Positions 10,965 through 63,021 of a stretch of 64,000 nucleotides of DNA are shown here, in pieces (the first letter of the stretch is position 1; each line of letters opens with the position of its first letter). Below the pieces are notes generated by a model, which had not been told where the DNA came from, did not search any database, and was given only the letters and a program-made list of their open reading frames with translations. Origin of the DNA: Ruegeria sp. PrR005 (GTDB lineage: Bacteria; Pseudomonadota; Alphaproteobacteria; Rhodobacterales; Rhodobacteraceae); contig NZ_JAAGOX010000056.1 in assembly GCF_010500245.1 (NCBI RefSeq), forward strand, positions 62,001 to 126,000, given 5' to 3'. A program made the position numbers and the translations under genes.

Positions 10965-10985
10965 GATTGACGATGGTACAAATGT
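10948..10985. promoter_or_regulatory. inverted repeat in the RpiR / FAD-GcvT divergent promoter
   Basis: Perfect 8-bp half-sites ACATTTGT (10948-10955) and ACAAATGT (10978-10985) separated by 22 bp. The left half lies within the first codons of the RpiR gene and the right half between the two divergent starts. The placement suits an RpiR dimer-of-dimers repressor site controlling both directions. Confidence 0.5.
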
Positions 10986-11033
10986 GACATTAGCCTGTCG
11001 AGAGAAATCGCGACTCGTGAAGTGGAAAATTTC

Positions 11034-13490
11034 ATGTCCCAGCAGAACCTGCCCACCCATGCGCGTGTGGTCATTGTCGGCGGCGGCGTCATGGGGGTGG
11101 GCCTGGCCTATCACCTGGCGCATGAAGGGTGGGGCGGTGATACCGTCCTGCTGGAAAAGGCCGAGCTGACCAGCGGCAGCACCTGGCACGCGGCGGGGCA
11201 GATCACCCATTCGACCAGCTCGTTCGGTCTGGGCAAATGCGTCGATTACAACATCGGCCTCTATTCAGGAAAGCTCGAGGCCGAGACCGGGCAGGCGGTC
11301 ACCTGGCATGGCTGCGGTTCGTTCCGGCTGGCCTACACGCAAAACGAGATGGACTGGCTGCGCCACACGCTGTCAGTGGGCACCGCGCTGGGCTTCAACA
11401 TCGAGCTGGTCGGGCCGGAGCGGATCGCCGAGCTGCACCCGTTCTACAATCTCGACGGGGTCCTGGGCGCGCTGCACACACCCGATGACGGGCATGTGGA
11501 CCCGACAAACGTGACCATGGCGATGGCGGCGGGGGCGCGACAAAAGGGCGTGCGCATCTTCCGCCACACCCGCGCCACCAACATCACCCAAGGCGCGAAT
11601 GGCGAATGGGTGGTCGAGACCGAAAAGGGTGCGATCACCTGCGAACATGTGGTCAACGCGGGTGGCACCTATGCCCGCCAGATGGGCGAATGGTCGGGCC
11701 TGCAACTGCCGATGACCTCGATGACGCACCACTATTTTGTGACCGAACCGGTGCCCGAGTTCCAGTCGCTGGACCGCGAATTGCCGGTCATCCGCGATGA
11801 CCGCAAGGTCTCGGGCTATATCCGGATGGAGCAGAAACGCGGCCTGATCGGCATCTATGAAAAGGCCAATCCCAATGCCGTCTGGATCGACGAATGCCCC
11901 TGGGATTACGAAAACTGGCTGTTCGATGCCGATTACGACCGGGTCATGCCCTGGCTCGAGGAAAGCCTCAACCGCATGCCGATCTTTGCCAATCTGGGTA
12001 TCCAGCGCGAGGTGCATGGCGCCATCAGCCACCCGCCCGATGGCAACCCGCTCATTGGCCCGGCGCCGGGGGTGCGCAACTACTGGTGCTGCTGCGGCAC
12101 CCAGATCGGCATCGGCTGGGGGCCGGGGCTCAGCCGCGAACTAGCGCGCTGGATCGTGCATGGCGCCGCCGACATCTCGATGCGCGAGTTCGACCCGCGC
12201 CGGTTTGGCACCTATGCCACCAAGGACTGGCAGGTGGTGAAGGCCAAGGAGGACTATTGCCTGCGCCACGAGATCCCGTTTCCGCATTTCAACCGCCTTG
12301 CCGGGCGCCCGGTGAAACCCTCACCGCTTTATGACCGACTCAAGGCCAAGGGCGCGGTGTACGAAGAGGTTTATGGCCACGAACGCCCGCGCTGGTTCGC
12401 GCGCGGGATCGAACAGCGCGATTACTACGGCTTTGGCCGCACGCCAGTGCACGACATGGTCGCGACCGAATGCGCCGCCGTGCGCAGCGCCGCCGGGATC
12501 ATGGATATCTCGGCCTTTACCAAGGTCGAGGTCTCGGGCCCGGACGCAAGCGCGCTGCTCGACCGCCTCTGCGCCAACCGCCTGCCGCTAAAGGTGGGCG
12601 GCATCGCGCTCACCCATATGCTGAACCGGCGGGGCCGGATCGAGCTGGAAACCACCGTGGTGAAGCTGGCCGAAGACCGGTTCTACCTCGTCTGCGCCGC
12701 CTTCTTCGAACAACGCCTGCTGGATCACCTGGCCGCGCATCGGGGCACGGCGAATATCGCGGTCCGCAACCTTTCCACCGACTGGGCCGCGCTGGCCCTG
12801 AACGGCCCGCGCGCGCGCGATATCCTTGCCGCCTGTACCGATGCCGACCTGTCGAACGCGGGTTTCAAATGGCTGACAGCACGGCAGATCACCGTTGCGG
12901 GCCACAGCCTCTGGGCCATGCGCATGTCCTATGCGGGCGAACTGGGGTGGGAACTTCACATCCCCCGCGAACATGCGCTCGCGGTCTATGACGCGCTCTG
13001 GGCGGCGGGCGAGGCCCATGGCCTGTCCGACTATGGCAGTTTCGCGATGAATGCGCTCCGCATGGAAAAGGCGTTCAAGGGCGCGGGCGAGCTGACCAAC
13101 GAGGTGACGCTGGCCGAGGCCGACGTGCTGCGCTTTGCCCGCACAGACAAGGATTATCTGGGCCGGGACAGGACGCTGAACGCGGGCAACCTGCCTTGGG
13201 TCTGCGCCTATCTCGAAATCGAACCCGACGGCCGCCACGACGGCAACGGCGGCGAGGCGGTGCGGCTCCACGGCAAGGTGATAGGCTCCACGGCTTCGGT
13301 GGCCTACGGTCACACCGTCGGCAAGATCCTGGCCTTCGCCTATGTCAAACCTCATGTGAATGTGCCGGGAACCGAGGTCGAGGTGATCATCGCCGGATCC
13401 CCCCGCAAGGGCCGCATCCTCGGCGCGCCCGCCTATGATCCCGACAGCCTGCGCCCCCGGGCCGATCTCCAGACGGAACCGGCGCAATGA
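11034..13490 (+). CDS. FAD-dependent oxidoreductase with GcvT domain (dimethylglycine/sarcosine dehydrogenase-like)
   Basis: About 818 residues. The N-terminal DAO domain has the dinucleotide motif VVIVGGGVMGVG (about 12-23) and the STWHAAGQ segment typical of the covalently flavinylated dimethylglycine/sarcosine dehydrogenases. It is followed by an FAO_M linker (about 375-430) and GcvT N- and C-terminal domains (about 435-810) that hand the released one-carbon unit to tetrahydrofolate. ATG 11034 is preferred to a GTG four codons earlier. It oxidatively removes an N-methyl group, fitting the second step after a Rieske demethylase. A 178-bp gap with an antisense-oriented copy of the intergenic repeat separates it from the epimerase. 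Exact substrate unknown. Confidence 0.87.
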   Translation: MSQQNLPTHARVVIVGGGVMGVGLAYHLAHEGWGGDTVLLEKAELTSGSTWHAAGQITHSTSSFGLGKCVDYNIGLYSGKLEAETGQAVTWHGCGSFRLAYTQNEMDWLRHTLSVGTALGFNIELVGPERIAELHPFYNLDGVLGALHTPDDGHVDPTNVTMAMAAGARQKGVRIFRHTRATNITQGANGEWVVETEKGAITCEHVVNAGGTYARQMGEWSGLQLPMTSMTHHYFVTEPVPEFQSLDRELPVIRDDRKVSGYIRMEQKRGLIGIYEKANPNAVWIDECPWDYENWLFDADYDRVMPWLEESLNRMPIFANLGIQREVHGAISHPPDGNPLIGPAPGVRNYWCCCGTQIGIGWGPGLSRELARWIVHGAADISMREFDPRRFGTYATKDWQVVKAKEDYCLRHEIPFPHFNRLAGRPVKPSPLYDRLKAKGAVYEEVYGHERPRWFARGIEQRDYYGFGRTPVHDMVATECAAVRSAAGIMDISAFTKVEVSGPDASALLDRLCANRLPLKVGGIALTHMLNRRGRIELETTVVKLAEDRFYLVCAAFFEQRLLDHLAAHRGTANIAVRNLSTDWAALALNGPRARDILAACTDADLSNAGFKWLTARQITVAGHSLWAMRMSYAGELGWELHIPREHALAVYDALWAAGEAHGLSDYGSFAMNALRMEKAFKGAGELTNEVTLAEADVLRFARTDKDYLGRDRTLNAGNLPWVCAYLEIEPDGRHDGNGGEAVRLHGKVIGSTASVAYGHTVGKILAFAYVKPHVNVPGTEVEVIIAGSPRKGRILGAPAYDPDSLRPRADLQTEPAQ

Positions 13491-49046: not shown

Positions 49047-52000
49047 TCAGCGGGTGCCTAGCAGGCGGGCCGCCTCGGCTCTCGCGCGCTGGGCCGAGGC
49101 GATGCGCACGGGGCCGTAGCCGCGGATCTCGTCGGCGGATTCGAGTGCCGCAAGCGCCGTTTCGGGGTCTGTACAAAACGGCACATTCGCCATCAGATCG
49201 CTGTACCAAACGGTCAATTCGCGGTGCAATCTGGCCTCGGCGTGATAGCCGAACGGATTGAACCGCGACCCGCGCAGTCCCTTCATCCGCGCAAGTCCCC
49301 GCAAGACAGGCGTCATCCAAGGACCAAACGCACGCTTTGCCGGCCGCCCGCGCGCATCGGTTTTCCGGCTCAGAAGCGGCGGCGCCATGTGGTATTTCAC
49401 CGTGAAATCGCCGTCGAATTTGTCGGCCAGTTCGCGGGTAAACAGATCGGCGGTCATCAGCCGGGCCACTTCGAATTCATCCTTGTAAGCCAACAGCTTG
49501 AAGAGGTTTCTTGCGGCCGCGTGCAGCATCTCCTCGCTGGCCTGCGGCATCGCCGCGCGAAAGCTTTGCAACTGGTCGGTGTAGCGCTTGGCATAGGCCG
49601 CGTCCTGATACTCGGCCAGAAACGCGGCCCGGCGGGCAACCATTTGATCATAAGTCTCTTTTTCCGACTCAGCCTCGCCGTATCCGTCCAGTCGCGTTGG
49701 GTCCGAGGCCATCGCCCGACCCACCGCAAAAGCCAGGCGGTTCTTTTCCACCGCCACGCCATTGAGCAGGATCGCCTGACCCAGAGCGGTCAGGCTGACG
49801 GGCACCAACCCCTGCTGCCAGGCGTAGCCCAGCATCATGACATTGGCGAAAACCGCGTCGCCCAGGAGTGTTTCCGCTGCCTCGTTGGCATTGAAACCAT
49901 TGACATTTTCTGACCCGACCACGGCGGAAATTGCCGTCTCGCGCGTGTCGATCTTCAATTGTGCGTCGCGATGCAGCACCAGATCGCCGGTCGGCATCTC
50001 GGCCCGGTTCAGCACAATCTTTGTGCCGTTGCGGTAATGCGCCGAGGCCTTGGGCGCGGAGCTGACCACCATGTCACAGCCGATCACCGCATCCGCGCCA
50101 CCGGTGTCGATACGCACCTGATTGAGCGCGTCCGGGCGGGCGCCCAGACGTATGTAACTGAGAACAGTGCCGAATTTCTGCGCAAACCCGGTGAAATCCA
50201 GCACAGATGCGCCCAGCCCTTCGAGATGGGCGGCCATGGTGATCAGCGCGCCCACGGTAACAACGCCGGTGCCGCCGACCCCGGTGACCAGCAGGTCAAA
50301 AGGGTCGGACAGCGCGGGCAGGGTGGGCATGGGCAGGCCGCTTTCCAACTGCTCCAGATCCAGTTTGACCGCGCGCTTGCGCCGGGTGGCGCCCTCGACG
50401 GTGACGAAGCTGGGGCAGAATCCGTTCAGGCAGGAGAAATCCTTGTTGCAGGAGCTGAGGTTGATCTTGCGCTTGCGGCCCAGCGGGGTCTCGCGTGGCT
50501 CGACGCTGAGACAGTTCGAAGCGACCGAGCAGTCGCCGCAGCCCTCGCAGACCAGATCGTTGATCCAGGCAAAGCGCTTGGGGTCTTCGATCTTGCCACG
50601 CTTGCGGCGGCGGCGCTTTTCGGTGGCACAGGTCTGTTCGTAGATCAGCACGGTGACGCCCTTGATCTCGCGCAGCTCTTTTTGCACCGGCATCAGCTCG
50701 GCCCGGTCGTGGAACGTGGTGCCGGCGGGGAAATCGGCGCGCGAGAATTTCTCGATGTCGTCCGAGACCAGCGCGATGCGCGCGACCCCCTCGGCGCGGC
50801 AGGTCTGGGCGATGCCCGAGACGCTGACCGGCCCGTCGACCGGCTGGCCGCCGGTCATCGCAACCGCATCGTTATAGAGGATCTTGTAGGTGATGTTGGT
50901 GCCTGCCGCGACAGCCTGCCGGATCGCGAGCGAGCCGGAGTGATACCAGGTGCCTTCGCCCAGGTTCTGGAAAATATGCTTGCCGCCGTTGAACTTGGAC
51001 GCCACCACATGCGGCACACCCTCGCCGCCCATCTGGGCGTATCCGTCGGTGTCGCGGTTCATCCAACTGGCCATCACGTGACAGCCGATGCCGCTGTTGG
51101 CGCGCGAGCCTTCGGGCACCTTGGTCGAGGTATTGTGCGGACATCCCGAGCAGAAATAGGGGGTGCGGGTGGCACCCGGCACCGCGATCACGGGGGGCGG
51201 CGTTTCGGTCAGCGCGCGGGCGCGGGAGGGCAGGTTCTCCTCAGGGAAGAACGCATCCAGACGCGCGGCCACCACGGGGGCCAGCATCAGCGGGCTCAGC
51301 TCGCCGGTCCAGGGGATCAGCGGCTCGCCTTGTTCGTCGTATTTGCCGACCATCCGGTGCGGTTTGTCGCCCGGCCAGTCATAGAAATACTCCTTGAACT
51401 GGCTCTCGATGATGCCGCGCTTTTCCTCGACCACCAGCACCTCCTGCTTGCCGCGCACAAAGCGCAGGGCGTTGCGGCGGGCCAGCGGCCAGACCATGCC
51501 GACCTTGTAGATGTCGATGCCAAGCGCGCGGCATTTGGCCTCTTCCAGACCCAAGAGGCGCAGCGCCTCCATCAGGTCGAGATGCCCCTTGCCGGTGGTG
51601 ACAAAGCCGAAGCGGGCGTTGGGAAGGTCATAGATGCGCCGGTCGATCGGGTTTTCCTCGGCAAAGGCGCGCACGGCGCGCAGCTTGGCTTGGATGCGGA
51701 TCTCGATCTCGGGGCTGGGCAGGTCGGCGCGTCGGACGTGCAGGCCACCGGCGGGTAGGTCGATCTGCGGCAGGGTGAACTGACGATCCGGGCGCAGCTC
51801 GACCGAGCGGCCGCTTTCCACTGTTTCGCTGATCGCCTTGAACCCGACCCAGGTGCCCGAGAAGCGCGACAGCGCCAGGCCATATTCGCCGAATTCCAGG
51901 TATTCCTCGACTGAGGCGGGGTTCAGCGTTGGCATGAACCAGGCCATGAAAGCCACGTCGGACTGGTGTGGCATCGAGCTGGAGACGCAGCCGTGGTCGT

Positions 52001-52451
52001 CGCCCGCCACCACCAGCACACCGCCCTTGGGTGCGCTGCCATAGGCGTTGCCGTGTTTCAGCGCATCGCCCGAGCGGTCCACCCCCGGCCCCTTGCCGTA
52101 CCACATCGAGAAGATGCCCTCGTGCTGGCAATCGGGGTCCAGCACCGCCTGTTGTGCCCCCAGAACGGCGGTGGCGCCCAGATCCTCGTTCACCGCGGGC
52201 ATGAAGGTGATGCGATCCTGCTCCAGCCGTGCCTTGGCGCGCCACATTTCCAGATCCAGTCCGCCCAGCGGCGAGCCCCGGTATCCCGAGACGAAGCCCG
52301 CGGTGTTCAGCCCGGCGGCGCGGTCGCGGCGGGCCTGATCCATCATGATCCGCACCAGCGCCTGGGTTCCGGTCAAAAACACCCGGCCGGTGATCTGGTC
52401 GTAACGGTCCTCCAGCGCATAGCTGCGCAGGGCGGGGGCGGGATGGGTCAT
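49047..52451 (-). CDS. indolepyruvate:ferredoxin oxidoreductase (fused IorA-IorB type)
   Basis: 1134 residues, one chain containing what archaea split into IorA and IorB. The N-terminal pyruvate-oxidoreductase-like domain comes first, then the TPP-binding domain with FCSGCPHNTSTKVPEG, a ferredoxin-like cysteine cluster near residues 630-680 (VCEGCGDCS, then CLSVEPRETPL and SSCNKDFSCLNGFCPSF), and the C-terminal gamma-type domain (TGVGGTGVVTVGALITMAAH). It oxidatively decarboxylates aryl-pyruvates from aromatic amino-acid transamination to aryl-acetyl-CoA. Phenylpyruvate would give phenylacetyl-CoA, the substrate of the paa operon in the same window. Divergent from an Lrp/AsnC regulator. Confidence 0.92.
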   Translation of the reverse strand: MTHPAPALRSYALEDRYDQITGRVFLTGTQALVRIMMDQARRDRAAGLNTAGFVSGYRGSPLGGLDLEMWRAKARLEQDRITFMPAVNEDLGATAVLGAQQAVLDPDCQHEGIFSMWYGKGPGVDRSGDALKHGNAYGSAPKGGVLVVAGDDHGCVSSSMPHQSDVAFMAWFMPTLNPASVEEYLEFGEYGLALSRFSGTWVGFKAISETVESGRSVELRPDRQFTLPQIDLPAGGLHVRRADLPSPEIEIRIQAKLRAVRAFAEENPIDRRIYDLPNARFGFVTTGKGHLDLMEALRLLGLEEAKCRALGIDIYKVGMVWPLARRNALRFVRGKQEVLVVEEKRGIIESQFKEYFYDWPGDKPHRMVGKYDEQGEPLIPWTGELSPLMLAPVVAARLDAFFPEENLPSRARALTETPPPVIAVPGATRTPYFCSGCPHNTSTKVPEGSRANSGIGCHVMASWMNRDTDGYAQMGGEGVPHVVASKFNGGKHIFQNLGEGTWYHSGSLAIRQAVAAGTNITYKILYNDAVAMTGGQPVDGPVSVSGIAQTCRAEGVARIALVSDDIEKFSRADFPAGTTFHDRAELMPVQKELREIKGVTVLIYEQTCATEKRRRRKRGKIEDPKRFAWINDLVCEGCGDCSVASNCLSVEPRETPLGRKRKINLSSCNKDFSCLNGFCPSFVTVEGATRRKRAVKLDLEQLESGLPMPTLPALSDPFDLLVTGVGGTGVVTVGALITMAAHLEGLGASVLDFTGFAQKFGTVLSYIRLGARPDALNQVRIDTGGADAVIGCDMVVSSAPKASAHYRNGTKIVLNRAEMPTGDLVLHRDAQLKIDTRETAISAVVGSENVNGFNANEAAETLLGDAVFANVMMLGYAWQQGLVPVSLTALGQAILLNGVAVEKNRLAFAVGRAMASDPTRLDGYGEAESEKETYDQMVARRAAFLAEYQDAAYAKRYTDQLQSFRAAMPQASEEMLHAAARNLFKLLAYKDEFEVARLMTADLFTRELADKFDGDFTVKYHMAPPLLSRKTDARGRPAKRAFGPWMTPVLRGLARMKGLRGSRFNPFGYHAEARLHRELTVWYSDLMANVPFCTDPETALAALESADEIRGYGPVRIASAQRARAEAARLLGTR

Positions 52452-52590: not shown

Positions 52591-53049
52591 TTGCATCTGG
52601 ATGACCGGGATCGCCGCATTCTGACCCTGTTGCAACAGGACAGCCGAATCTCGAATTCCGACCTTGCCGAAGCGGTCGGCATGTCAGCCTCGGCGCTTTG
52701 GCGCAGGGTTCGCGCATTGGAAGATACGGGGGTGATCGAACGTTATGGCGCGGTGGTGAACACGGCCGAAATGGGGTTGACCTTTGAGGCGATTGTTCAC
52801 GTTCACCTGACCCGTCACGACCCGGACCGCATCGTAGAGTTCATCCGCGCGATAGACACCTGTCCAGAGGTACAGGATTGTTATGCCACGACGGGGCAGG
52901 CCGACTATCACCTGCGGGTCCTGTGCCGTGATCTTGCGGCCTATAACGTGTTTCTCGAAGGGTTTCTGTTCCGGTTGTCTGCGGTGGCGAGCGCGCAGAC
53001 GAATGTCGTCTTGAGGACCGTCAAACGGAACCGGCCGGTCGCCGTCTGA
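52591..53049 (+). CDS. Lrp/AsnC-family transcriptional regulator
   Basis: 152 residues, TTG start (LHLDDRDRRILTLLQQD). The N-terminal HTH (ISNSDLAEAVGMSASALWRRVRALE, about 20-44) and the C-terminal RAM effector domain (about 65-145) are complete. Located 139 bp from, and divergent to, the indolepyruvate oxidoreductase gene, as with other Lrp-type activators of aromatic amino-acid catabolism. Effector probably an aromatic amino acid; inferred. Confidence 0.9.
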   Translation: MHLDDRDRRILTLLQQDSRISNSDLAEAVGMSASALWRRVRALEDTGVIERYGAVVNTAEMGLTFEAIVHVHLTRHDPDRIVEFIRAIDTCPEVQDCYATTGQADYHLRVLCRDLAAYNVFLEGFLFRLSAVASAQTNVVLRTVKRNRPVAV

Positions 53050-53230: not shown

Positions 53231-55576
53231 ATGGCACAGACCCGATTATCGGCGCGTCTCACAGTGGGAATGCGGCGGATTATCATCGGTATTGTTTTGA
53301 TGATGCCAACGGCCGTGGTTTCGGCAACTCAGACCGATGCGCTCGACGCACCGATGGAAATCGTGACTTTTGGTCCCGATGACACCATTCGTGGCGTGGT
53401 CGAAAAATATCTGCGCGATCCGGACCTTTGGCCGACCATTCTGGCCCTGAACGGCATTGCGTCGCCCGCCGACCTGCGCCCGGGCGCCAAGTTGCAGCTG
53501 CCGGTGCGCCAGGTGTTCGCGGCGGACGAAGCGCTTTTGGGGTCGCTTCAGGCGATTCAAAAGGCAAACTCCGAAGGCGCACGCATTTTTGCCCCCGTCG
53601 AGATCGGCGAGGCGATCCGCAACCGGGATGAGGCGGTGCAGCAGCGCGAGGTCGGCGAATGGCGCCAGGTCGTCAGCTTTGCCGACGTTGCCACAGTCAT
53701 TGCCCTGGAGGCGCTGGATATTTCCATCGCCCAACGGGATCGCTCGGCCGAAGCGGTCGTGTCGGATGTTCAGGGTGATGTCGAAGGGCGTGCGCCGATC
53801 GAACCAAGCTGGTCGGATCGTGAACTGAACGACGTGCTGGTCGAATTCGAGCGGGTCAGAACCCTGTCGTCGAGCACGACGCAGATCACGTTTCGCGACC
53901 TGAGCCGTCTGCGTCTGAACCCGAATTCCAACGCCACGATCCAGCGGATGCGTTCCGATCCCCTGACCGGGGGCGAGGTGACCAAGGTGTCGCTGGCAGA
54001 GGGCGATTTCTATGCGCTCCTGAACCAGCTGTCCGAAAAGACCACATTCGAAATCGAGGTTCCGGGGATCGCGACCAAGACGAACTCGGCCGATTTCTGG
54101 ATCAAGAACGACCAGTCGGGGGCGCGGTTCGTGAACTACGATCAACCCGGGCTGGAGATCGAGGAGAACGGACGCAAGATCGACGTCGGTCAGGGAGAGG
54201 GTGTGGTGATCACCGGGGCGGGCGCGCAGCGGGCAACAGTGCTCAACAGCCCGCGGCTAAGCACGCCGGACCTGGGGGCGATCCTCTACACCCGAACCGC
54301 CGATCTGGACTGGGACAGTTTTGATGGGGCCGAGGCCTATTGGCTTGAGATCGCCGCCGATCCCGGTTTCAACCAGATGCAGGTGTCCGAATGGGGCATT
54401 CGCGATACCGCGTTTCAGGTCGAGCTTGCGCCTGCCCGGTACCATTGGCGCGTTGCGGCCCTGGATCGGCTGGGGTTGCCGGGGGCCTGGAGCACGCCGC
54501 GCGATTTCACCGTGCGTCTGGACGATACACCGCCTTTCCTTACGCTGCTGTCACCCGCGCCCGATGCAATGGTGACGGAACCCAAGATCGAGGTTCTTGG
54601 TGCGACCGAGCTTGATGCTGCGCTGATCCTGAACGGAAAGCCGTTGCAACAGGCGGCGGATGGCAGCTTTGTCCTCCAGGTATCGCTGGTACCGGGGCGC
54701 AATACGCTGAGCGTCTTTGCGACCGATCCGGCAGGGAACACCAGCACCCGTAGCCAGACCGTGATCTATCGGCCGGCCGCATCCGTCGAAATCACTCTGG
54801 CCGAGGATATCCCCCGGGTCGGCGCGGCGCTGGCGACGCGGTCGGATCAGCTGTCGGTCAATGCGCGCACGACAGCCGAACCGGGGGCGCCGGTCGCGGT
54901 ACGCGACGCCGAGAGCAACGAGATTCTGCGGACCGGTGTCGAACCCGGAGGGCGGATCAGCTTTACCGTTCCGGTCGGGGCGCAGGAGACAGCCTTTCGT
55001 ATCGAGATTCTGGCACCGGATGGCTCGGTCGAGGGCTCGACCGAGTTCGCGGCGCTGCGCGACCAGGTGCCGCCAGAGCTTGCCCTGGACGTTCCACCAC
55101 CGCGTGCAACGGCCGAAACGCTGATGGATCTGACCGGCGACGCCGGGGATGCGCAGTCGCTGACCTTCAACGGTACCGCCGTGCCCCTCACCGAGGGCCG
55201 GTTTGATCTGTCGGTCACGCTGACTCCTGGGGTAAACGCGTTCGAACTGGTTGCGGCCGATGCCGTGGGCAACGTTACGGTCCGGCGGCTCGAGACGCTT
55301 CTGGACATCGAGCCGCCGGTGATCCTGGAGGTTGCCGTCACCCGGCCGCAGGGCGAGGACGGACCGATCACAATCGAAGCTCGGGCCGAGGATGCGTCAG
55401 GCTTGCGTCAGGCCGCGCCTTTCGTGCTGCGGGTCGATGCGGACGAGATCGAAGGGTTCTTGAGATGCGACGCGGCGACCGGTGTCTGCCGGACATCCCT
55501 GCCGCCTCAGGCAGGTGAGTTGGACCTGATCGAACTGATGATCGAAGACTACGCTGGCAACGCCGCGTTTCAATGA
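53231..55576 (+). CDS. exported LysM / FecR / Ig-like domain protein
   Basis: 781 residues; ATG 53231 has AAGGA close by, and an ATG 13 codons in would give a cleaner signal (MRRIIIGIVLMMPTAVVSA). After the signal, about residues 45-95 form a LysM-type peptidoglycan-binding unit (DDTIRGVVEKYLRDPDLW), about 185-340 a FecR domain (TQITFRDLSRLRLNPNSN and KVSLAEGDFYALL), then a fibronectin/Ig-like set (about 345-775) including APARYHWRVAALDRLG and several PxGxNxF-type beta-sandwiches. No cytoplasmic part is predicted, unlike classic FecR. Followed by a giant PKD protein and an adenylate cyclase in the same direction. Confidence 0.82.
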   Translation: MAQTRLSARLTVGMRRIIIGIVLMMPTAVVSATQTDALDAPMEIVTFGPDDTIRGVVEKYLRDPDLWPTILALNGIASPADLRPGAKLQLPVRQVFAADEALLGSLQAIQKANSEGARIFAPVEIGEAIRNRDEAVQQREVGEWRQVVSFADVATVIALEALDISIAQRDRSAEAVVSDVQGDVEGRAPIEPSWSDRELNDVLVEFERVRTLSSSTTQITFRDLSRLRLNPNSNATIQRMRSDPLTGGEVTKVSLAEGDFYALLNQLSEKTTFEIEVPGIATKTNSADFWIKNDQSGARFVNYDQPGLEIEENGRKIDVGQGEGVVITGAGAQRATVLNSPRLSTPDLGAILYTRTADLDWDSFDGAEAYWLEIAADPGFNQMQVSEWGIRDTAFQVELAPARYHWRVAALDRLGLPGAWSTPRDFTVRLDDTPPFLTLLSPAPDAMVTEPKIEVLGATELDAALILNGKPLQQAADGSFVLQVSLVPGRNTLSVFATDPAGNTSTRSQTVIYRPAASVEITLAEDIPRVGAALATRSDQLSVNARTTAEPGAPVAVRDAESNEILRTGVEPGGRISFTVPVGAQETAFRIEILAPDGSVEGSTEFAALRDQVPPELALDVPPPRATAETLMDLTGDAGDAQSLTFNGTAVPLTEGRFDLSVTLTPGVNAFELVAADAVGNVTVRRLETLLDIEPPVILEVAVTRPQGEDGPITIEARAEDASGLRQAAPFVLRVDADEIEGFLRCDAATGVCRTSLPPQAGELDLIELMIEDYAGNAAFQ

Positions 55577-55623
55577 AATACGGCCGGTTTGGGGGCGCCG
55601 GATCGGCTATGGAGGGAAGGAAC

Positions 55624-58600
55624 ATGGGAGTGGTACGGAACGGAGCAGCGGTGACGCTGGCAGTTGTCTTGTCGGCCATTTCAACGAGCGTTCCCGCGCA
55701 GGTTGAGACCACCGAGGGGCTGCTTGTGGTCTATGGCCCCCAGGCCCCAAGCCGGGAGGGGGACACCGATCGCCGCGAGCAGGTGTTCTTTTCCTTGCCT
55801 GCGGGGCTGAAGGACCGGGTCTACGTTCGGGTCTTCGATCCCGAGACCGGCGGATCGGGCGATTTCACCTATGGTGGCGCGGGCGACTCGGAAACCACGT
55901 TTCGCCTGTTTGGAGGCGAGGGCGCCTTTAGCCGCGCCGACCGCCCGGAACCCATCAGCGACGGCGCGCGCGAACCGCGCCTGATCCCTTATGACCCGGT
56001 GACGCAACCGGGAACGATCATCCGCGAGGAGACCTGGGGCAGCGACAAGTCCACCGATGGCCGCTGGGTTTCGCTGGCGGCGGTTCGGGCCAATCAGGGC
56101 GAGGTCGTCGGCGACCGCGCCTATTTCCGGATCGACGTGCAGGGCAGCCGGGGTAACGACGGCAATAGCTTCTCCCTTGGGGTCAGCCTGGCCCGGGATC
56201 GGGACCGGGCGCCCGAGGGGCTGGAGATGTTCTCGTATCGCCCGACCGTCCGGTGGTCGGCTGGCAGCCCGGCCACACAGGTCTGGTTCCAGGCCCCGGC
56301 GCCGGGGGCATTGACAGTGCAGACATTCGACGGCGCCAATGGCGAGCTGGCGCTTGTGACCGACTATCGCGATCTGCCCTTGCGCATATCGGGACAGGAT
56401 TTCTGGACCTCGGACGAGGTGGAGACCGATGAAACCAACCTGGCTGTCAGCCTGCTGGGCGGGTTCGAGACGCCAAACGACGTGACCCTGGCCGTTTTCG
56501 ACGCCGAAGGCCGGCCTTTGCCGCTGTCGATGCCGCCGACACGCGCTCCGGAACCGCCACGTCCGACCGCGGTCGGAACCGGCCAGCCGCTGGCCGATTG
56601 CCGCTCGGTCGCTTTCGACGCCAGCGCCTCGACCGGGCTCACTCCGCTTGCCTATCTGTGGGACTTTGGCGACGGTAACCGCTCGACCGAACCGGTGATC
56701 GCGCATCGCTATGCCAATCCGGGGCGTTACGTGGCGCGGCTGAGCCTGTTGGAGCCGGGCAACCGGCCCGGGCGCGGCGACCGGATCGAGGTGCCGGTTC
56801 ATGTGCGCAACGCCCCCGCAGCGGTTCCCGGCAGCGATATCGTGGTTGCGCCGGGACAGGTGGTGGAGTTCGACGGATCTGCCTCGCAACCCTCGGACAG
56901 CCCGATCACCGCGTTCCGCTGGACCTTTGGGGATGGCGGCGTGGCACAGGGGCCGCGCGCGCAGCATGTGTATGCGCAACCGGGCCAGTATCGCGCGGTT
57001 TTGCGGGTTCAGGACGAGGCGCAGCATCCCTGCAACTTTGGCACTGCCGTGCGTCGGGTTGTGGTCAACTTCCCCCCGGTCGCCGAGGCGGGCACGGATC
57101 AGACCGCGATCATCGGCCAGTCGGTGACCCTGTCGGGTGCGGCCAGCTATGACGTGGATGGCGCCATCGTGAATTATCGCTGGAGCATGGGGGACGGCAC
57201 CGTGCTGGAGGGCGAAACGGTCACCCACCGCTACACCAGTTCGGGCAGCTATCAGGTTCTGCTGACGGTGACCGATGACAGCGGGGTGATCAACAAGATC
57301 GCCACCGATGGCATGCGGGTCGAGGTCAACGCCCCGCCCGAGCCGAGTTTCTCGATCCCCTCCCGTCCGGTGTCGGTGTCCGAGGTCGCGGTACTTGACG
57401 CCTCCGCCTCGATCGACGCGGACGGTCAGATCCTCAGCTATATCTGGGACTTTGGCGATGGGGCGATGGGCGAAGGTCCCATCGCCAGCTATGCCTGGAC
57501 CCGGTCGGGCGAGTTTTCCGTCACGCTGACGGTCGAGGATGACAGCGGCACCGCCTCGGCGCTGCAATCGGTCACCCGGATCGTGCGGGTCGACGCCGCC
57601 CCGGTCGCGGATGCGGGGCCGGACCAGTACGTCACCGCAAGCGATGTGCGCTTCGACGGCGGCGGATCGGTCGATCCGGATGGCAAGGTGACGGAATGGC
57701 TGTGGGAGTTTGGCGATGGTGCGACGGCCAGCGGTCAGGGCGTGAGCCATGCCTATCTGCGACCGGGCCGGTACGAGGTCGCGCTTACAGTGCGGGACAA
57801 CAGCGGTGCGCCGCTGAATACACATCGCGACACGATGTGGTTGACCATCAACACAACACCCATCGCGGATGCGGGACCGACCCAGACGGTGGCGCCGGGC
57901 GAGGAGTTTGTTCTGTCCGGGCGCGCCTCTGTCGATCCCGATGGCGAGATTTCCGACTATGTCTGGAGCTTCCCGGATGGCCAGCAGAAGCCCGGTCAGC
58001 GGGTTGCGCATGTGTTCGACGCACCCGGTCTTTATCCTGTCCGCCTGACGGTGGCCGACAATTTTGTCGGCGGCCCGGCCCAGGACGAGGCCGAAGTCCT
58101 GATTACCGTCAACGAGGCCCCGGTGGCCGTTGCCGGGCGTGATCTGCTGGTCGCCCCGGGTGAAACGGTGGTGTTCGATGCCGGGCAGAGCTTTGACCCC
58201 GACGGGCGGTTGACCTCGTTCCGGTGGGAGTTCGAAGACCTCGGCGCACCGCTGGAGGCCAGGATGGTCGAGCGTGCCTATGACTCGCCTGGTGTCTGGA
58301 GCGCCCAGTTGGTGGTTGCCGATGACAGCGGCGTGCTGAATTCCACGGCGACCGACGATCTGACGATCCGGGTGAACCATGCACCGGTCGCCGAGGCGGG
58401 ACAGCCTGTGGTCACGGATCAGCTGTATGTGACCTTTGACGGATCGGGGTCTAGCGATGGCGACGGCGATCCGCTGGTGCATCGCTGGGATTTTGGCGAT
58501 GGCTCGCCCCCGGTTCTGGGTGAAACCGTGACCCATGTTTATGCGCGTCCGGGGATTTTCCCCGTCACGCTCCGGGTCGATGATGGGACCGGCCTGTCCA

Positions 58601-60480
58601 ACGCCCGTTCGATCGATGCCACCACGGTCACCATCAAATCGCGTCCGCTGGCCGTGGCCGGTGGCAACCGCGAGGTCTGCTCGGGCGAGCCGATCCTGTT
58701 TGACGCGTCGGGCAGTTCCGATCCCGACGGCGGGTTGCTGGCCTATGAGTGGAGTTTCGGCGACGGGTCGGAATCCGACCTGATCAACCCGACCAAGACC
58801 TATGAGTTCCCGGGCGTTTATCCGGTGACGCTGAGAGTACGCAACGAGACAGGCACCGAATATGGCACCGCCGTCGATCGAATTGCCGCGCTGGTGCGCG
58901 AAGGTCCGATCGCCGATGCCGGACCGGACCGGACGGTTTGTTCCAACAGCCAGGTTCGGTTCGACGGGTCCGGCTCGACCGACGCGGATGGCGCGGTCAA
59001 CGCCTTTGCCTGGACCTTCGGCGATGGCGGCAACGGCAGCGGTGCGACACCGCAGCACGTATTCAAGACGCCGGGGACATATTCGGTCACTCTGACGATC
59101 ACCGGTGATGCACGTGGCGCATGTAGCCCCCTGGATACGGACACTGCGGAAATCACGGTGGTCGCTGCGCCGGAACTGAGCATTCTGGGCAAGGGTCGCG
59201 CCGCGGCCGGTATGCCCGCGACCTTCTCGGCCGGTCTCGACAAGCTGGGTGGCGCCGAAGCCACCGGATTTTCGTGGTCGACGTCGGATGGCGGCAGCTA
59301 TGAAGGCCGGGACATCTCGCATGTGTTTGCGGAGCCGGGAGATTATCTGGTGACGCTGCGGACCAGCCTGTCCGGCGGAACTGAGGCGTGCCGCGAATTG
59401 GAAGTTCAACGCAGGATCATCGTGAACGCGGCACCCGACCCCAAGATTCAGGCACCTGAACGGGTGTCGGTCGGACAATCCGTGCGCTTTGATGGGGGCG
59501 AGACAGCCGATAGCGACGGTGCGATCTCGGACTTCAGCTGGGATTTCGGCGATGGTGGCCGCGCACAGGGGGTGCAATCGGTTCACATCTTCGAAACCCC
59601 CGGAAGCTTTGACGTGACGCTGACGGTGACCGATGACGCAGGTGTTGGCAACAGCGTGCAGACAGCGGTTCACCGGGTTCTGGTTGCCCCATCCCCGGTT
59701 GCGGGACTTGAAGCGCGCGGCGCGGTCTGTCCCGGTGTCACCTTGCCTTGGGCGGTTGGGCCGGGGGCCGAGACGGCGGTCGCCTGGGCTTTTGGCGACG
59801 GCACGGTGATGGAGGGAGAAGAGGTTCAGCACGGGTTCGCGAAACCGGGCCTGATGCCGGTGCAGGTCACGCTCGACGACGGGCTCGGGCTGCCGGGCAG
59901 CCGCCGCGCCGAGGAAATCTATGTGCGGGTGAACGCGCAGCCGACAGCGCTGGCCGGGCCGGATCGGGTGGTGTGCCCGGGCGAGACCGTCTTGTTCGAT
60001 GCCGGTGGGTCCGGGGACTTGGACGGCGACCTGACCAAGTGGATCTGGAAGTTCTCGGATGGAGTCACGCTTGAAGGCGCGCGGGTTGAACGGGCCTTTG
60101 ACGGGGCTGCCGACCTAACCGTGGAGCTGAGCGTGCAGGACAACAGCGGTGCGCAGGGGTGTGACGTTGGGACCGACACCGCGCGGGTGCTGGTGAATGG
60201 CACACCGGTTGTGGACGCGGGGCCGGACCTGGAGGTGCCGGTTGGGGCGGCGCATGACGTGGTGCGGTTCGATGCAACCGGCGCAACCGACCCGGACGGG
60301 CACGGGCTGCGGCTGAGCTGGTCATTTGGTGATGGCGCCGAGGCGACCGGCGCCATTGCTCGCCACCGCTTTGCCAATCCCGGTACCTATACCGTGACCG
60401 TGCGGGCGCAGGACAGCACCGGGCTGGTTTGCGGCATAGGCCGCGACACGGCAACCATCACCGCCGTGCCGCGAGAGTGA
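55624..60480 (+). CDS. giant exported PKD-repeat protein
   Basis: About 1618 residues from ATG 55624, which follows GGAGGGAAGGAAC and starts a signal peptide (MGVVRNGAAVTLAVVLSAIS, cleavage after PAQ). An ATG 17 codons earlier overlaps the previous gene's stop (ATGA) but has no ribosome site. The first 310 residues form an unassigned beta-rich domain. The rest is about fifteen PKD domains of 85-90 residues, recognised by W-x-F-G-D-G repeats (YLWDFGDG, FRWTFGDG, YIWDFGDG and so on), four of them degenerate (SFPDG, EFEDL, STSDG, KFSDG). No anchor is seen at the C terminus. Probably a long periplasmic or surface rod that binds protein or polysaccharide. Confidence 0.9.
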   Translation: MGVVRNGAAVTLAVVLSAISTSVPAQVETTEGLLVVYGPQAPSREGDTDRREQVFFSLPAGLKDRVYVRVFDPETGGSGDFTYGGAGDSETTFRLFGGEGAFSRADRPEPISDGAREPRLIPYDPVTQPGTIIREETWGSDKSTDGRWVSLAAVRANQGEVVGDRAYFRIDVQGSRGNDGNSFSLGVSLARDRDRAPEGLEMFSYRPTVRWSAGSPATQVWFQAPAPGALTVQTFDGANGELALVTDYRDLPLRISGQDFWTSDEVETDETNLAVSLLGGFETPNDVTLAVFDAEGRPLPLSMPPTRAPEPPRPTAVGTGQPLADCRSVAFDASASTGLTPLAYLWDFGDGNRSTEPVIAHRYANPGRYVARLSLLEPGNRPGRGDRIEVPVHVRNAPAAVPGSDIVVAPGQVVEFDGSASQPSDSPITAFRWTFGDGGVAQGPRAQHVYAQPGQYRAVLRVQDEAQHPCNFGTAVRRVVVNFPPVAEAGTDQTAIIGQSVTLSGAASYDVDGAIVNYRWSMGDGTVLEGETVTHRYTSSGSYQVLLTVTDDSGVINKIATDGMRVEVNAPPEPSFSIPSRPVSVSEVAVLDASASIDADGQILSYIWDFGDGAMGEGPIASYAWTRSGEFSVTLTVEDDSGTASALQSVTRIVRVDAAPVADAGPDQYVTASDVRFDGGGSVDPDGKVTEWLWEFGDGATASGQGVSHAYLRPGRYEVALTVRDNSGAPLNTHRDTMWLTINTTPIADAGPTQTVAPGEEFVLSGRASVDPDGEISDYVWSFPDGQQKPGQRVAHVFDAPGLYPVRLTVADNFVGGPAQDEAEVLITVNEAPVAVAGRDLLVAPGETVVFDAGQSFDPDGRLTSFRWEFEDLGAPLEARMVERAYDSPGVWSAQLVVADDSGVLNSTATDDLTIRVNHAPVAEAGQPVVTDQLYVTFDGSGSSDGDGDPLVHRWDFGDGSPPVLGETVTHVYARPGIFPVTLRVDDGTGLSNARSIDATTVTIKSRPLAVAGGNREVCSGEPILFDASGSSDPDGGLLAYEWSFGDGSESDLINPTKTYEFPGVYPVTLRVRNETGTEYGTAVDRIAALVREGPIADAGPDRTVCSNSQVRFDGSGSTDADGAVNAFAWTFGDGGNGSGATPQHVFKTPGTYSVTLTITGDARGACSPLDTDTAEITVVAAPELSILGKGRAAAGMPATFSAGLDKLGGAEATGFSWSTSDGGSYEGRDISHVFAEPGDYLVTLRTSLSGGTEACRELEVQRRIIVNAAPDPKIQAPERVSVGQSVRFDGGETADSDGAISDFSWDFGDGGRAQGVQSVHIFETPGSFDVTLTVTDDAGVGNSVQTAVHRVLVAPSPVAGLEARGAVCPGVTLPWAVGPGAETAVAWAFGDGTVMEGEEVQHGFAKPGLMPVQVTLDDGLGLPGSRRAEEIYVRVNAQPTALAGPDRVVCPGETVLFDAGGSGDLDGDLTKWIWKFSDGVTLEGARVERAFDGAADLTVELSVQDNSGAQGCDVGTDTARVLVNGTPVVDAGPDLEVPVGAAHDVVRFDATGATDPDGHGLRLSWSFGDGAEATGAIARHRFANPGTYTVTVRAQDSTGLVCGIGRDTATITAVPRE

Positions 60481-60482
60481 GC

Positions 60483-60517
60483 GCGGTGCGCCCCGGAAAA
60501 CGTCCGGGGCGTACCGC
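60483..60517 (+). terminator. long hairpin between PKD and cyclase genes
   Basis: 15-bp near-perfect stem (GCGGTGCGCCCCGGA / TCCGGGGCGTACCGC) with a 5-nt loop directly after the PKD stop. No T-run; likely an mRNA-end stabiliser or attenuator limiting cyclase expression. Confidence 0.55.
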
Positions 60518-60566
60518 TGCCTGATTTGGCGCGACTGTTAACAGGTATTGCGATAGGCTGCGCAAA

Positions 60567-62324
60567 ATGAGATTCCCGCTGCGCCTGAAATTCTTTGTGT
60601 TTGCAGTCCTGCTGGCCGTGGGTCCGCTGGCCTTGGTGGGGCAGAACCTCACCCAACTCAGCCGCGATGAACTCAAAAGCGCCGCCAACGAGGATTTGAC
60701 AACGGTCGCGGCCGAGTTGCGCGGAACCTTCGACAATACGTTTCAGGGCCGGTGGTTGACGCCGCTGATGGTGATCCGCAACGCGGTCGACAGTGCTGAA
60801 CTGGGCGTGCCGCAGAAGATTTCGCTGCTGACGCTGGGTTTGCAGGAACTCGGCCAGGTGGCGGCCCTGCAATTGTCGGTCGAAGGGTCCGACCTGCCGA
60901 TCATGGTAACCAATGAGGGGTTTGCGAACAAACTGGTGGTGGCCGGGCTGGACCCGGTACAGGTGCTGGCCACGCCACCCGATCTGATCAAGGCGATCGC
61001 TGAGACCGGGCAATTCGGCCGCCCGGTCATCTCGCGACTGGAGGCCACAGGTGATTGGATGGCCACCCTGGCTCTGCCGCTCAACAGCAAGATCGCTGGC
61101 CGTCAGGTCACGATGGCCGCCAAGATCGACCTGTCTCTGCTGTCTGAGACCGTTCAAAGACATCCCTTCGCACAGCGCGGCGAGATCACGGTGGTGGATC
61201 AGGCCGGGCGCAGGGTTCTGACCGATACGCCTGAGCTTTTGATCCAGCGCGGGATCGTTGCTTCGACCCTTCCGCTGATCGTCGCCGGGGCACGGGCGGA
61301 TGCGCTGGAACCCTATGTGCGTCCTGATGGAACCGCGATGCTGGGGGCCTATGCCTTTCCCGACTGGTTCCCCTGGGCCGTGATCACCGAACTGAGCGAA
61401 GACAATGCCTATGCTGTCGTCAATGCGATTACCCGCCAGATCCTGATGGTGGGCCTGATCGGTTTCGCGGCCGCGACCGCTGGTGCGCTGATCTTTGCCC
61501 GTCGGCTGAGCCGGCCGATCCTGCGGATCGGGCAGGTGGCACAAAAGGTCGGCGAAGGCGATTTCGGCGCCCGGGTCGAGGATGTGCGGTCGCGCGACGA
61601 GATCGGGGACCTTGCCCAGCGGTTCAACCGGATGATCGCACATCTGGGCGAACGGGTCGAATTGATGAAGTTCGTCTCTCACAGCACCATGTCAGCCATC
61701 CAGAGCGCCGAGCGGACAGGCATGGAGCGTGGCGGTCGCCGCCGTCGCGTATCGGTGATCTTTACCGATATCCGGGGCTATACCGAATTCTCCGAGCGGG
61801 TGCCGCCAGAGACGGTGATCGAAGTGTTGAACAGCTATTTCGATGTGCAGACCGAGCTTGTCGAACGTTTCAAGGGCGATGTCGACAAGTTCGTGGGAGA
61901 TGCCCTGGTCGCCGTGTTCGAAGGCGAGGGGATGGAAGGTCGCGCGGTGGAATGCTCGGTCGGTATCGCCGAAGCCATGGTGCAGTTGCTGGAACAGCAT
62001 CCCGAACACGGTTTGCATGTGGGGATCGGGGTCGCCTCGGGCGAGGTCGTCATGGGGGCGATGGGCGCCCGAGACCGGATGGATTTCACGGTGCTGGGGT
62101 CGACGGTCAACCTGTCGGCACGGCTGTGTTCCAAGGCGGCGCCGGATCAGGTGCTGGTCGATCGCGAAACCCGGGACGCCGCCGGGCTGGACGGTTTTGT
62201 CTATGATCCGCTGGAGCCGATTGCACTGAAAGGCTATGCCGCCCCTGTGCCGGCCTTTGCCGCGCGGCGGATTGCGGTTCTGGCTGAGGCGACTGCAAAC
62301 CCAACGCCCGCCCAAATCGACTGA
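60567..62324 (+). CDS. membrane class III adenylate cyclase with periplasmic sensor and HAMP
   Basis: 585 residues. One span near the N terminus (RFPLRLKFFVFAVLLAVGP), a periplasmic sensor of about 255 residues, a second span (about 290-310), HAMP (about 310-360) and a class III cyclase domain from about 393. Metal aspartates are D401 (FTDIRGY) and D445 (FVGD); the adenine-specifying K441 and D506 and the transition-state N515 and R519 are all present, so it should make cAMP from ATP. The gene lies 86 bp after the PKD gene, separated only by a hairpin. The extracytoplasmic sensor has no family I can name. Sensing coupled to the LysM/FecR and PKD proteins is an inference from order. Confidence 0.9.
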   Translation: MRFPLRLKFFVFAVLLAVGPLALVGQNLTQLSRDELKSAANEDLTTVAAELRGTFDNTFQGRWLTPLMVIRNAVDSAELGVPQKISLLTLGLQELGQVAALQLSVEGSDLPIMVTNEGFANKLVVAGLDPVQVLATPPDLIKAIAETGQFGRPVISRLEATGDWMATLALPLNSKIAGRQVTMAAKIDLSLLSETVQRHPFAQRGEITVVDQAGRRVLTDTPELLIQRGIVASTLPLIVAGARADALEPYVRPDGTAMLGAYAFPDWFPWAVITELSEDNAYAVVNAITRQILMVGLIGFAAATAGALIFARRLSRPILRIGQVAQKVGEGDFGARVEDVRSRDEIGDLAQRFNRMIAHLGERVELMKFVSHSTMSAIQSAERTGMERGGRRRRVSVIFTDIRGYTEFSERVPPETVIEVLNSYFDVQTELVERFKGDVDKFVGDALVAVFEGEGMEGRAVECSVGIAEAMVQLLEQHPEHGLHVGIGVASGEVVMGAMGARDRMDFTVLGSTVNLSARLCSKAAPDQVLVDRETRDAAGLDGFVYDPLEPIALKGYAAPVPAFAARRIAVLAEATANPTPAQID

Positions 62325-62453: not shown

Positions 62454-62834
62454 TCAATACGCGAAACTGGTCCAGGCCCAAGCCATGAAGATATAGGTCA
62501 ACTGGTGCAGGAACTGGTCAAATCCCATCGCATGCCAGTATTTTGCCTGATTGGGCTGCAACGCTTTTCGGTCTGAATAGAAGCCCTTACCGAAATCAAT
62601 ATGGAAATGCGCAATCCACTCCAGGGCGACAATCACCCCGATGAAACCCAGCGGCGCCCCCATGATGACAAAAACGATAATTGATCCCAGCGCATGCACC
62701 GATGCGTGTTGTGCCCGGCCCATATGCCAGTAGCTGCACCGCCCGGCCAGCATCTTGGGCGTTTGCAGGAAGAAGTCGGCGAACATGTGCTTTACCTGCA
62801 AAAGGCAAAGCAACAGCAAAACAGTGCCGATCAT
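62454..62834 (-). CDS. small membrane protein, DUF3307-like
   Basis: 126 residues from ATG 62834. About three to four hydrophobic segments (IGTVLLLLCLLQVKHMFADF, GSIIVFVIMGAPLGFIGVIV, FLHQLTYIFMAWAWTSF). The HMFADFFLQTPKML and HFHIDFGKGF motifs, with the paired histidine and aspartate near membrane helices, match DUF3307. Function unknown. The longer in-frame start lacks the domain start. Convergent with the cyclase gene. Confidence 0.75.
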   Translation of the reverse strand: MIGTVLLLLCLLQVKHMFADFFLQTPKMLAGRCSYWHMGRAQHASVHALGSIIVFVIMGAPLGFIGVIVALEWIAHFHIDFGKGFYSDRKALQPNQAKYWHAMGFDQFLHQLTYIFMAWAWTSFAY

Positions 62835-63021
62835 TACTGGCAACAGACCTTCCTCCTTTTCATCCCCGGGGAGAAGCTTAGCGCAATATTCCCGCGCTGC
62901 AAAATGAACTCGTTCACATTCCAAGCTGCTTTTTTCGCCGTGAAATCCGTTGCAAGTCGATGAGCGGGCGCGCTAGCCTTGGGAACGCTCGCGGCGGCCG
63001 CGCACTGCCGAGACAAATTTT

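Follow-up and report, generated by a model that had tools for sequence, protein, structure and literature searches.

A stretch of 64,000 nucleotides from Ruegeria sp. PrR005 (contig NZ_JAAGOX010000056.1, positions 62,001 to 126,000 of the forward strand; analyzed as a whole and hereafter called the window) carries three consecutive genes for a FecR-domain protein (gene 1), a protein built largely of PKD repeats (gene 2) and a predicted membrane-bound class III adenylate cyclase (gene 3). The new analysis indicates that this trio is inherited as one unit, and it appears to be a route, so far unstudied, by which the condition of the envelope is relayed into the cell via cyclic AMP (cAMP). Specifically, the favored reading, to which a probability of roughly 0.57 is assigned, is that the three genes constitute one envelope-to-cytoplasm signaling unit in which a periplasmic assembly of the FecR and PKD proteins sets the activity of the membrane adenylate cyclase. 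The three co-directional genes reported in a preliminary description of this DNA are confirmed in coordinates, strand and frames: by open reading frame (ORF) reading, all lie on the forward strand and span 53231-62324. Genes 1 and 2 overlap by 4 bases in the window, where gene 2 starts within the last codons of gene 1, and genes 2 and 3 overlap by 4 bases in four of the eight genomes of the order that carry the trio.

Three genes inherited as one unit

The FecR, PKD and cyclase genes behave as one unit. Rare co-location in other genomes had been set beforehand as a possible refutation of a joint system, and the survey returned an all-or-none pattern instead. Specifically, among 148 genomes of the order Rhodobacterales, a gene 1 protein query (E <= 1e-10) finds relatives in 8, and profiles of the N-terminal region of gene 2 and of the gene 3 sensor (both at E <= 0.001) find the same 8 genomes, with one match per genome for each gene; at these thresholds, all three are missing from the other 140 genomes. 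The gene order of the trio is the same in the eight loci, whose flanks, read by eye, vary between genus groups. Farther afield, a class-wide search with a gene 1 profile matched 2 of 289 genomes at E <= 1e-10 (the window's own and G001; G-numbers denote genomes, G000 being the window's), and a phylum-wide search with the sensor profile matched 3 of 398, the third (G607) by a partial match at 7.8e-4. A further trio (L096; L-numbers denote loci of relatives) comes from the window's genus, in which three of five genomes carry gene 2.

A scan of contigs from named genomes with peptide patterns, which finds only relatives carrying those patterns, added depth to this picture by returning at least 44 loci. 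Their titles name Ruegeria, Falsiruegeria, Tropicibacter, Antarcticimicrobium, Seohaeicola, Phaeobacter, Pseudophaeobacter, Pseudodonghicola, Marinibacterium, Tateyamaria, Sulfitobacter, Aestuariivita, Thiosulfatihalobacter, Shimia and Salinihabitans, or just Rhodobacteraceae, and these genera presumably all belong to the roseobacter group. The full trio is held by 41 of the 44, in the same order and on the same strand, although in L059, which is among these, a stop interrupts the PKD frame; in L036 the contig end falls in gene 2, and the two remaining loci are taken up below.

Two readings that deny any joint function can be weighed against this distribution. That the genes are chance neighbors, kept together by common descent only, is highly improbable: genes for a DUF3307 protein and an ABC transporter downstream are also syntenic in the window's group (25 and 24 of 44 loci, respectively), as that reading would have it, but the Lrp-type, DUF3307 and ABC neighbors are all absent from the fetched flanks of 18 loci (among them L036, which has no 3' flank) and 16 of these 18 still hold the full trio, while 140 of the 148 genomes do without all three genes together. 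It is likewise improbable, if not to the same degree, that genes 1 and 2 form a tether or spacer between wall and outer membrane and that the cyclase is an independent neighbor. LysM-like, Ig and PKD domains would suit such a structural role, the rod has a fixed length, and pieces of the cyclase without the rod remain in L065 and L064; against this, the cyclase sensor never occurs without the other two genes in the 148 genomes, nearly all of the 44 loci keep the trio complete, and FecR domains of the order accompany periplasmic sensors.

Selection on the three genes argues in the same direction, and it is because of co-occurrence together with these rates that the trio is regarded as more than chance. 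The ratio of nonsynonymous to synonymous substitution rates (dN/dS), computed with a purpose-written Nei-Gojobori script, is 0.076, 0.063 and 0.045 for genes 1, 2 and 3 against L025 (94-96% identical) and 0.159, 0.124 and 0.099 against L096 (dS 0.8-1.0); all three genes are under purifying selection. The distances of the three proteins, furthermore, correlate with one another beyond what the downstream ABC gene shows as a control (partial correlations of 0.74, 0.49 and 0.52 over 23 loci), a result that fits co-evolution but also shared rates.

Constraint is distributed unevenly along the proteins. Averaged over all pairs of 42 sequences (the window's and those of 41 relatives), identity reaches 0.84 in the FecR region, 0.69 in the sensor, 0.68 in the catalytic domain and 0.66 in the HAMP region, followed by 0.63 in the LysM-like start with its linker, 0.62 in the PKD array, 0.59 in the N-terminal region of gene 2 and 0.53 in the FN3/Ig part. 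Insertions and deletions (indels), counted as events per 100 residues, amount to 0.00 in the LysM-like start with linker, the FecR region and the sensor, 0.14 in the PKD array, 0.24 in the HAMP region, 0.28 in the FN3/Ig part, 0.45 in the catalytic domain and 0.50 in the N-terminal region of gene 2. The dN/dS of the FecR region is 0.021 with L025, where the catalytic domain is lower, and 0.046 with L096, where the catalytic domain is higher.

FecR domains and periplasmic sensors across the order

That FecR domains occur next to class III cyclases in other bacteria had been stated in the preliminary description, and both the survey of the order and published work (PMC9239204, PMC5498481) bear this out. 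The 148 genomes hold 58 FecR and 51 CHASE2 domains. A CHASE2 domain lies within 5 kb of 46 of the FecR domains, 8 belong to the trio and 4 lie elsewhere (three of them in G140); seen from the other side, 46 of the 51 CHASE2 domains have a FecR neighbor within 5 kb. Fifteen of the 46 loci were checked for a class III cyclase domain, which 13 encode (tblastn, some matches being weak at E ~1e-7) and two do not. In this order, then, most FecR domains sit beside proteins with a periplasmic sensor, and the only recurrent arrangement that lacks CHASE2 in the genomes sampled is the trio.

In the genome of the window, the searches gave 45 class III cyclase matches, two FecR domains and a single CHASE2 domain. 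Both FecR domains adjoin a cyclase, one being that of gene 1 and the other lying beside the lone CHASE2 cyclase (G000:C13; L090, 1484-11467). At that second locus, the CHASE2 cyclase gene is divergent from a gene for a FecR protein with cadherin/Ig repeats that is open at the contig end, and neighbors resemble TolC, ABC and HlyD parts by eye, so that it may encode a cyclase-linked secreted adhesin.

The cyclase and its sensor

Gene 3 matches HAMP (60.0 bits) and Guanylate_cyc (PF00211, 77.4 bits) in Pfam, and its catalytic fold aligns with that of CyaB (PDB 3r5g) at Z 26.2, with a root-mean-square deviation (rmsd) of 1.9 over 181 aligned residues and 29% identity. The residues earlier listed as intact, D401, D445, K441, D506, N515 and R519, are indeed all present, and 40 of the 42 sequences, including the window's, keep all six. 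We take them to be the metal-binding, adenine-specifying and transition-state residues of such enzymes; judged by the conserved K441/D506 pair, assumed here to be the rule that points to ATP, the substrate is probably ATP. Two Tateyamaria loci are changed, L046 at D401 and N515 and L043 at N515, and the cyclase output there may be lost or altered.

A model based on the 42 sequences (mean pLDDT 80.2, pTM 0.48) has long helices with hydrophobic starts at residues 5-74 and 283-329 flanking the sensor, with the membrane parts judged by eye. In the model, the sensor opens with a long helix and continues with two alpha/beta modules, after which comes the second membrane helix. dCache receptors have a long N-terminal helix, two PAS-like modules and then a membrane helix and HAMP, an order of elements with which the model agrees. 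The window's sensor scores 18.4 bits against dCache_1, below the family cut-off of 45, and 14 of 16 sensor sequences match dCache_1 at E <= 1, the best at 1.8e-6. Chemoreceptor models appear in rows 11-12 of a Foldseek search, but at a TMq of 0.44 and an rmsd of 37.6, in a search with the model of the whole protein. A sensor profile searched against solved sequences gave no match up to E = 10, and Pfam gave none to CHASE2 in gene 3 up to E = 0.1. Taken together, sequence and model suggest that the sensor is dCache-like.

A role in defense was considered as well. The cyclase matches Pycsar cyclase models (PADLOC, best 3.2e-23) and gene 1 matches none, in a scan of these two proteins that included no search for Pycsar effectors; this role was set aside because the envelope domains favor signaling.

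The two envelope proteins

The gene 1 protein begins with what by eye is an export signal and a LysM-like segment. These are followed by a FecR domain (34.1 bits, cut-off 24), an FN3-like stretch with a weak profile match to PDB 5j7k (E = 0.037), and Ig-type domains; Pfam also gives a Glucodextran_B match of 64 bits. Of the exported LysM/FecR/Ig protein first described, the FecR domain thereby stands above its cut-off and Ig-type domains are found, whereas LysM falls below its cut-off, at the edge. When the 59-residue segment is scanned alone, LysM is matched in 10 of 21 pieces at E <= 1, with 20.5 bits for the window's piece, and a profile built from the 21 LysM-like pieces has as its top match the LysM domain of TsaP (PDB 3jc8, E = 0.0013). 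The start of gene 1 is, as such, a probable if marginal LysM domain, and peptidoglycan binding is putative.

Gene 2 had been announced as a protein of about 1600 residues with about fifteen PKD repeats, which agrees well with the 1635 residues and 15 stretches of PKD_4 found here (1031.5 bits, Pfam cut-off 27). Its 15 WxFGDG-type motifs are spaced 82-91 residues apart, and the repeats reach the protein end. In Ruegeria pomeroyi, SPO0571 is listed as a PKD domain-containing protein (PMC4809877) and is a candidate orthologue. Ahead of the repeats lies an export signal, again judged by eye; translation may instead begin 12 or 17 codons further on, at M13 or M18. The N-terminal region of about 290 residues has no Pfam match up to E = 1 in the window protein, and an AlphaFold2 model of residues 41-335 (mean pLDDT 89.3) shows strands throughout. 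No family was named for this fold: Foldseek returned five rows at E <= 0.001 with TM values of 0.20 or less, and the fold matches as a whole, with TM at most 0.24 and a best Z of 7.5 (from VIA), are at the level of common beta-sandwiches and uninformative.

The PKD array of gene 2 is constant in length. Its 15 repeats are colinear over the 42 sequences, almost without indels, down to about 55% identity; measured against the window protein, relatives gain no more than 7 residues and lack no more than 14 across some 1300, and the two cases of 14 missing residues may simply reflect where the match stops. Identity between orthologous repeats is 44-70% (per-repeat means, from 8 of the 42 sequences), as compared with a mean of 33-36% and a maximum of 51% for repeats within one protein in the same eight. 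Because repeats within a protein have diverged this far, slippage is not expected, and a constant repeat number is thus only suggestive of a ruler; as proof of one it was dropped. The LysM-like start with linker, the FecR region and the sensor have even fewer indels. An extended rod of 15 PKD domains would measure about 60 nm and exceed the depth of the periplasm, so that the rod, which presumably resides in the periplasm, would have to run along the envelope, bend or exit the periplasm. In an unlikely but specific variant of the signaling unit, the exact number of 15 PKD domains would make the rod a ruler or tension link from the wall-bound LysM-FecR protein to a distant point of the envelope, and the cyclase would turn spacing or load into cAMP.

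A model for the unit and its main rival

The available data are compatible with a model in which gene 3 acts as an inner-membrane adenylate cyclase whose dCache-like domain would pass a signal via HAMP to the catalytic dimer. The LysM-FecR-Ig protein of gene 1 would be held near the wall, and gene 2 would supply a rod of 15 PKD domains that is fixed in length. Contact would most naturally run through the FecR domain and the sensor; most likely, the strongly conserved FecR domain would contact the cyclase sensor or the rod, and the rod would couple this contact to something some distance off in the envelope. How much cAMP is made would thereby depend on the state of the envelope, perhaps through release of a brake exerted by the sensor on the enzyme. 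Both the signal sensed and the choice between activation and release are conjectural parts of this model, and the switch could be load, spacing, occupancy of the rod or a ligand. The interpretation in the preliminary description is partly supported: co-location of the genes and the link of FecR proteins with cyclases hold, and its rod that spans to the wall or surface and transmits contact or load is a conjecture.

Several observations weigh against this signaling unit. In L065, a Shimia isolate (10001-13092), a deletion takes out the rod and most of the Ig part; it starts where the FN3-like part of gene 1 ends, extends to the final 88 residues of gene 2 and leaves an open cyclase frame of 570 residues. 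L064 has lost the central portion of the operon, gene 1 into gene 3, and its frames are broken. The two loci reflect decay or assembly error, or hint at a cyclase that dispenses with the rod. The LysM domain is marginal: the full-length protein scores 15.5 bits where the cut-off is 20.9, and two of eight whole gene 1 sequences give a match at E <= 0.1. The sensor evolves faster than the catalytic domain in close pairs, with dN/dS of 0.038 versus 0.005 (L025) and 0.143 versus 0.059 (L096), which weakens the argument from deep conservation of the sensor and slightly lowers trust in the signaling unit in favor of its main rival. Lastly, in Sinorhizobium meliloti, loss of the FecR protein SMc02177 leads to hyperinfection while perception of the plant signal tested is retained, and outside the plant smc02177 is switched on by Clr, a cAMP regulator (PMC5498481). 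A FecR protein that is dispensable for perception and activated by Clr suggests that FecR partners may be outputs of the cyclase.

The main rival builds on this last point. It holds that the cyclase senses a small ligand through its dCache-like domain and that the FecR and PKD proteins form a cAMP-controlled envelope structure, co-encoded with the cyclase for co-regulation. dCache domains often bind small ligands, the S. meliloti FecR gene offers a precedent for a cAMP target, the sensor has the higher dN/dS in both pairwise comparisons, and the other FecR domain of the window's genome sits beside its CHASE2 cyclase in an adhesin-like cadherin/Ig protein near TolC/ABC/HlyD-like genes. Over the 42 sequences, however, the sensor equals the catalytic domain in conservation and is free of indels, and co-regulation of targets alone leaves the order-wide adjacency of FecR domains and periplasmic sensors unexplained. 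A search for CRP-type sites, limited to the Escherichia coli-type pattern with up to two mismatches, gave 9 matches in the window against a shuffle mean of 15.5, hence not above chance, and none upstream of gene 1 in the interval from the Lrp-type gene. This rival is a real but somewhat unlikely possibility, and the envelope-to-cAMP signaling unit is retained as the working model.

The trio is of broader interest as several bacterial groups have FecR genes next to those of membrane cyclases, and the published accounts cited here leave open how FecR bears on the cyclase. With one match per genome for each of its genes, the trio offers a clean form of this pairing in marine bacteria, namely one cyclase with two candidate partners. 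Whether a cyclase is gated by envelope proteins can thereby be tested, and a rod of constant length lends itself to a test of distance sensing.

Features and neighboring genes

Table 1 Features of the trio, in window coordinates
Feature	Coordinates	Strand	Basis
Gene 1, exported LysM-like/FecR/FN3-like/Ig protein, 781 amino acids	53231..55576	+	ORF; Pfam; relatives in 8/148 genomes
FecR region, gene 1 residues 201-300	53831..54130	+	Top mean identity among eight regions compared
Gene 2, exported PKD protein, 1635 amino acids	55573..60480	+	ORF; PKD_4 in 15 stretches; repeats colinear
Gene 2 N-terminal region, residues 45-335, beta-rich	55705..56577	+	AlphaFold2 model; without Pfam match
Array of 15 PKD repeats, gene 2 residues 340-1625, period ~87 residues	56590..60447	+	Motif positions, indel counts, 42 sequences
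Gene 3, membrane class III adenylate cyclase (predicted), dCache-like periplasmic sensor and HAMP, 585 amino acids	60567..62324	+	Pfam; solved relatives; model; fold search; catalytic residues
Periplasmic sensor, gene 3 residues 30-285, dCache-like	60654..61421	+	dCache_1 matches (the window's below cut-off); model
Class III cyclase catalytic domain, gene 3 residues 391-560	61737..62246	+	PF00211; fold match to CyaB

An open frame of 1383 residues lies antisense to the PKD gene (55681-59832, reverse strand) and is regarded as a probable artifact of base composition. Immediately before gene 1, an Lrp/AsnC-type regulator gene (52591-53049, forward strand) keeps this place in 10 of the 44 loci; it is divergent from a gene for 1134 residues (49047-52451) that by eye resembles indolepyruvate ferredoxin oxidoreductase. 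Convergent to the cyclase is the gene for the DUF3307 membrane protein (62454-62924, reverse strand; 41.7 bits), found beside the trio in the 25 loci counted above.

In 24 of the 44 loci, the ABC gene is the second gene after the cyclase; in the window it begins at 63022 on the forward strand and runs past the window's end at 64000. It encodes an ABC_membrane protein of about 1000 residues, whose full-length orthologue in L017 (1283-4354, reverse strand) ends in a C-terminal cNMP_binding domain (57.9 bits, cut-off 27.5) and may be a cAMP-responsive transporter. Matches to this ABC-cNMP protein (E <= 1e-50) occur in 8 of 8 trio genomes versus 33 of the 140 others, a hypergeometric result of 2e-5 that is confounded by kinship. 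As an effector of the unit's cAMP, the gene is only a lead, since it adjoins the trio in three of the eight genomes and the statistic carries that confounding.

Comparison with known systems

The absence of a described function for the trio, suspected from the start, held up in the open-access literature, where nothing was found on a FecR/PKD/cyclase trio, including PKD joined with FecR or with an adenylate cyclase. The trio has the name-giving FecR domain in common with the FecI/FecR/FecA systems, from which it differs in that its FecR domain sits in an exported multi-domain protein. Neither an ECF sigma factor nor a TonB receptor was found among the window's neighbors (Pfam, for the Lrp-type, DUF3307 and ABC-cNMP orthologue proteins), and the flanks of other loci were read by eye only. 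Gene 3 shares catalytic fold and residues with CyaB of Pseudomonas aeruginosa (PDB 3r5g), whose membrane and sensor parts differ from those of gene 3.

In the BiofilmReg operon of Burkholderia, a LysM-FecR protein is encoded with a CHASE2 histidine kinase and a response regulator, and interruption of the operon was accompanied by loss of biofilm (PMC5192318). This operon resembles the trio in that an exported LysM and FecR protein is encoded beside a membrane sensor; its output, however, is a two-component system, its sensor is CHASE2 and it has no PKD protein.

The closest likeness is to the pairs of FecR and CHASE2-cyclase genes. In Campylobacterota, FecR lies beside a CHASE2 cyclase, mostly with TPR and phosphodiesterase genes (PMC9239204). 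In S. meliloti, SMc02177 adjoins smc02178 and, by locus numbers, the cyclase CyaD1 (SMc02176), and CyaD1 without CHASE2 makes cAMP constitutively (PMC5498481), which means that a periplasmic sensor can act as a brake. Like these pairs, the trio places the gene of a FecR envelope protein near that of a class III cyclase that sits in the membrane and has a large periplasmic sensor. The trio does not belong to the CHASE2 pairs, because no CHASE2 was found in gene 3; instead, it has a dCache-like sensor with HAMP and a PKD gene between FecR and cyclase, and its neighbors are Lrp-type, DUF3307 and ABC-cNMP genes in place of the TPR and phosphodiesterase genes of Campylobacterota or the Clr of S. 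meliloti. Taken together, the trio would work like a FecR-partnered sensor cyclase, a pairing that is known, in which a dCache-like/HAMP sensor replacing CHASE2 and a PKD rod are the new elements.

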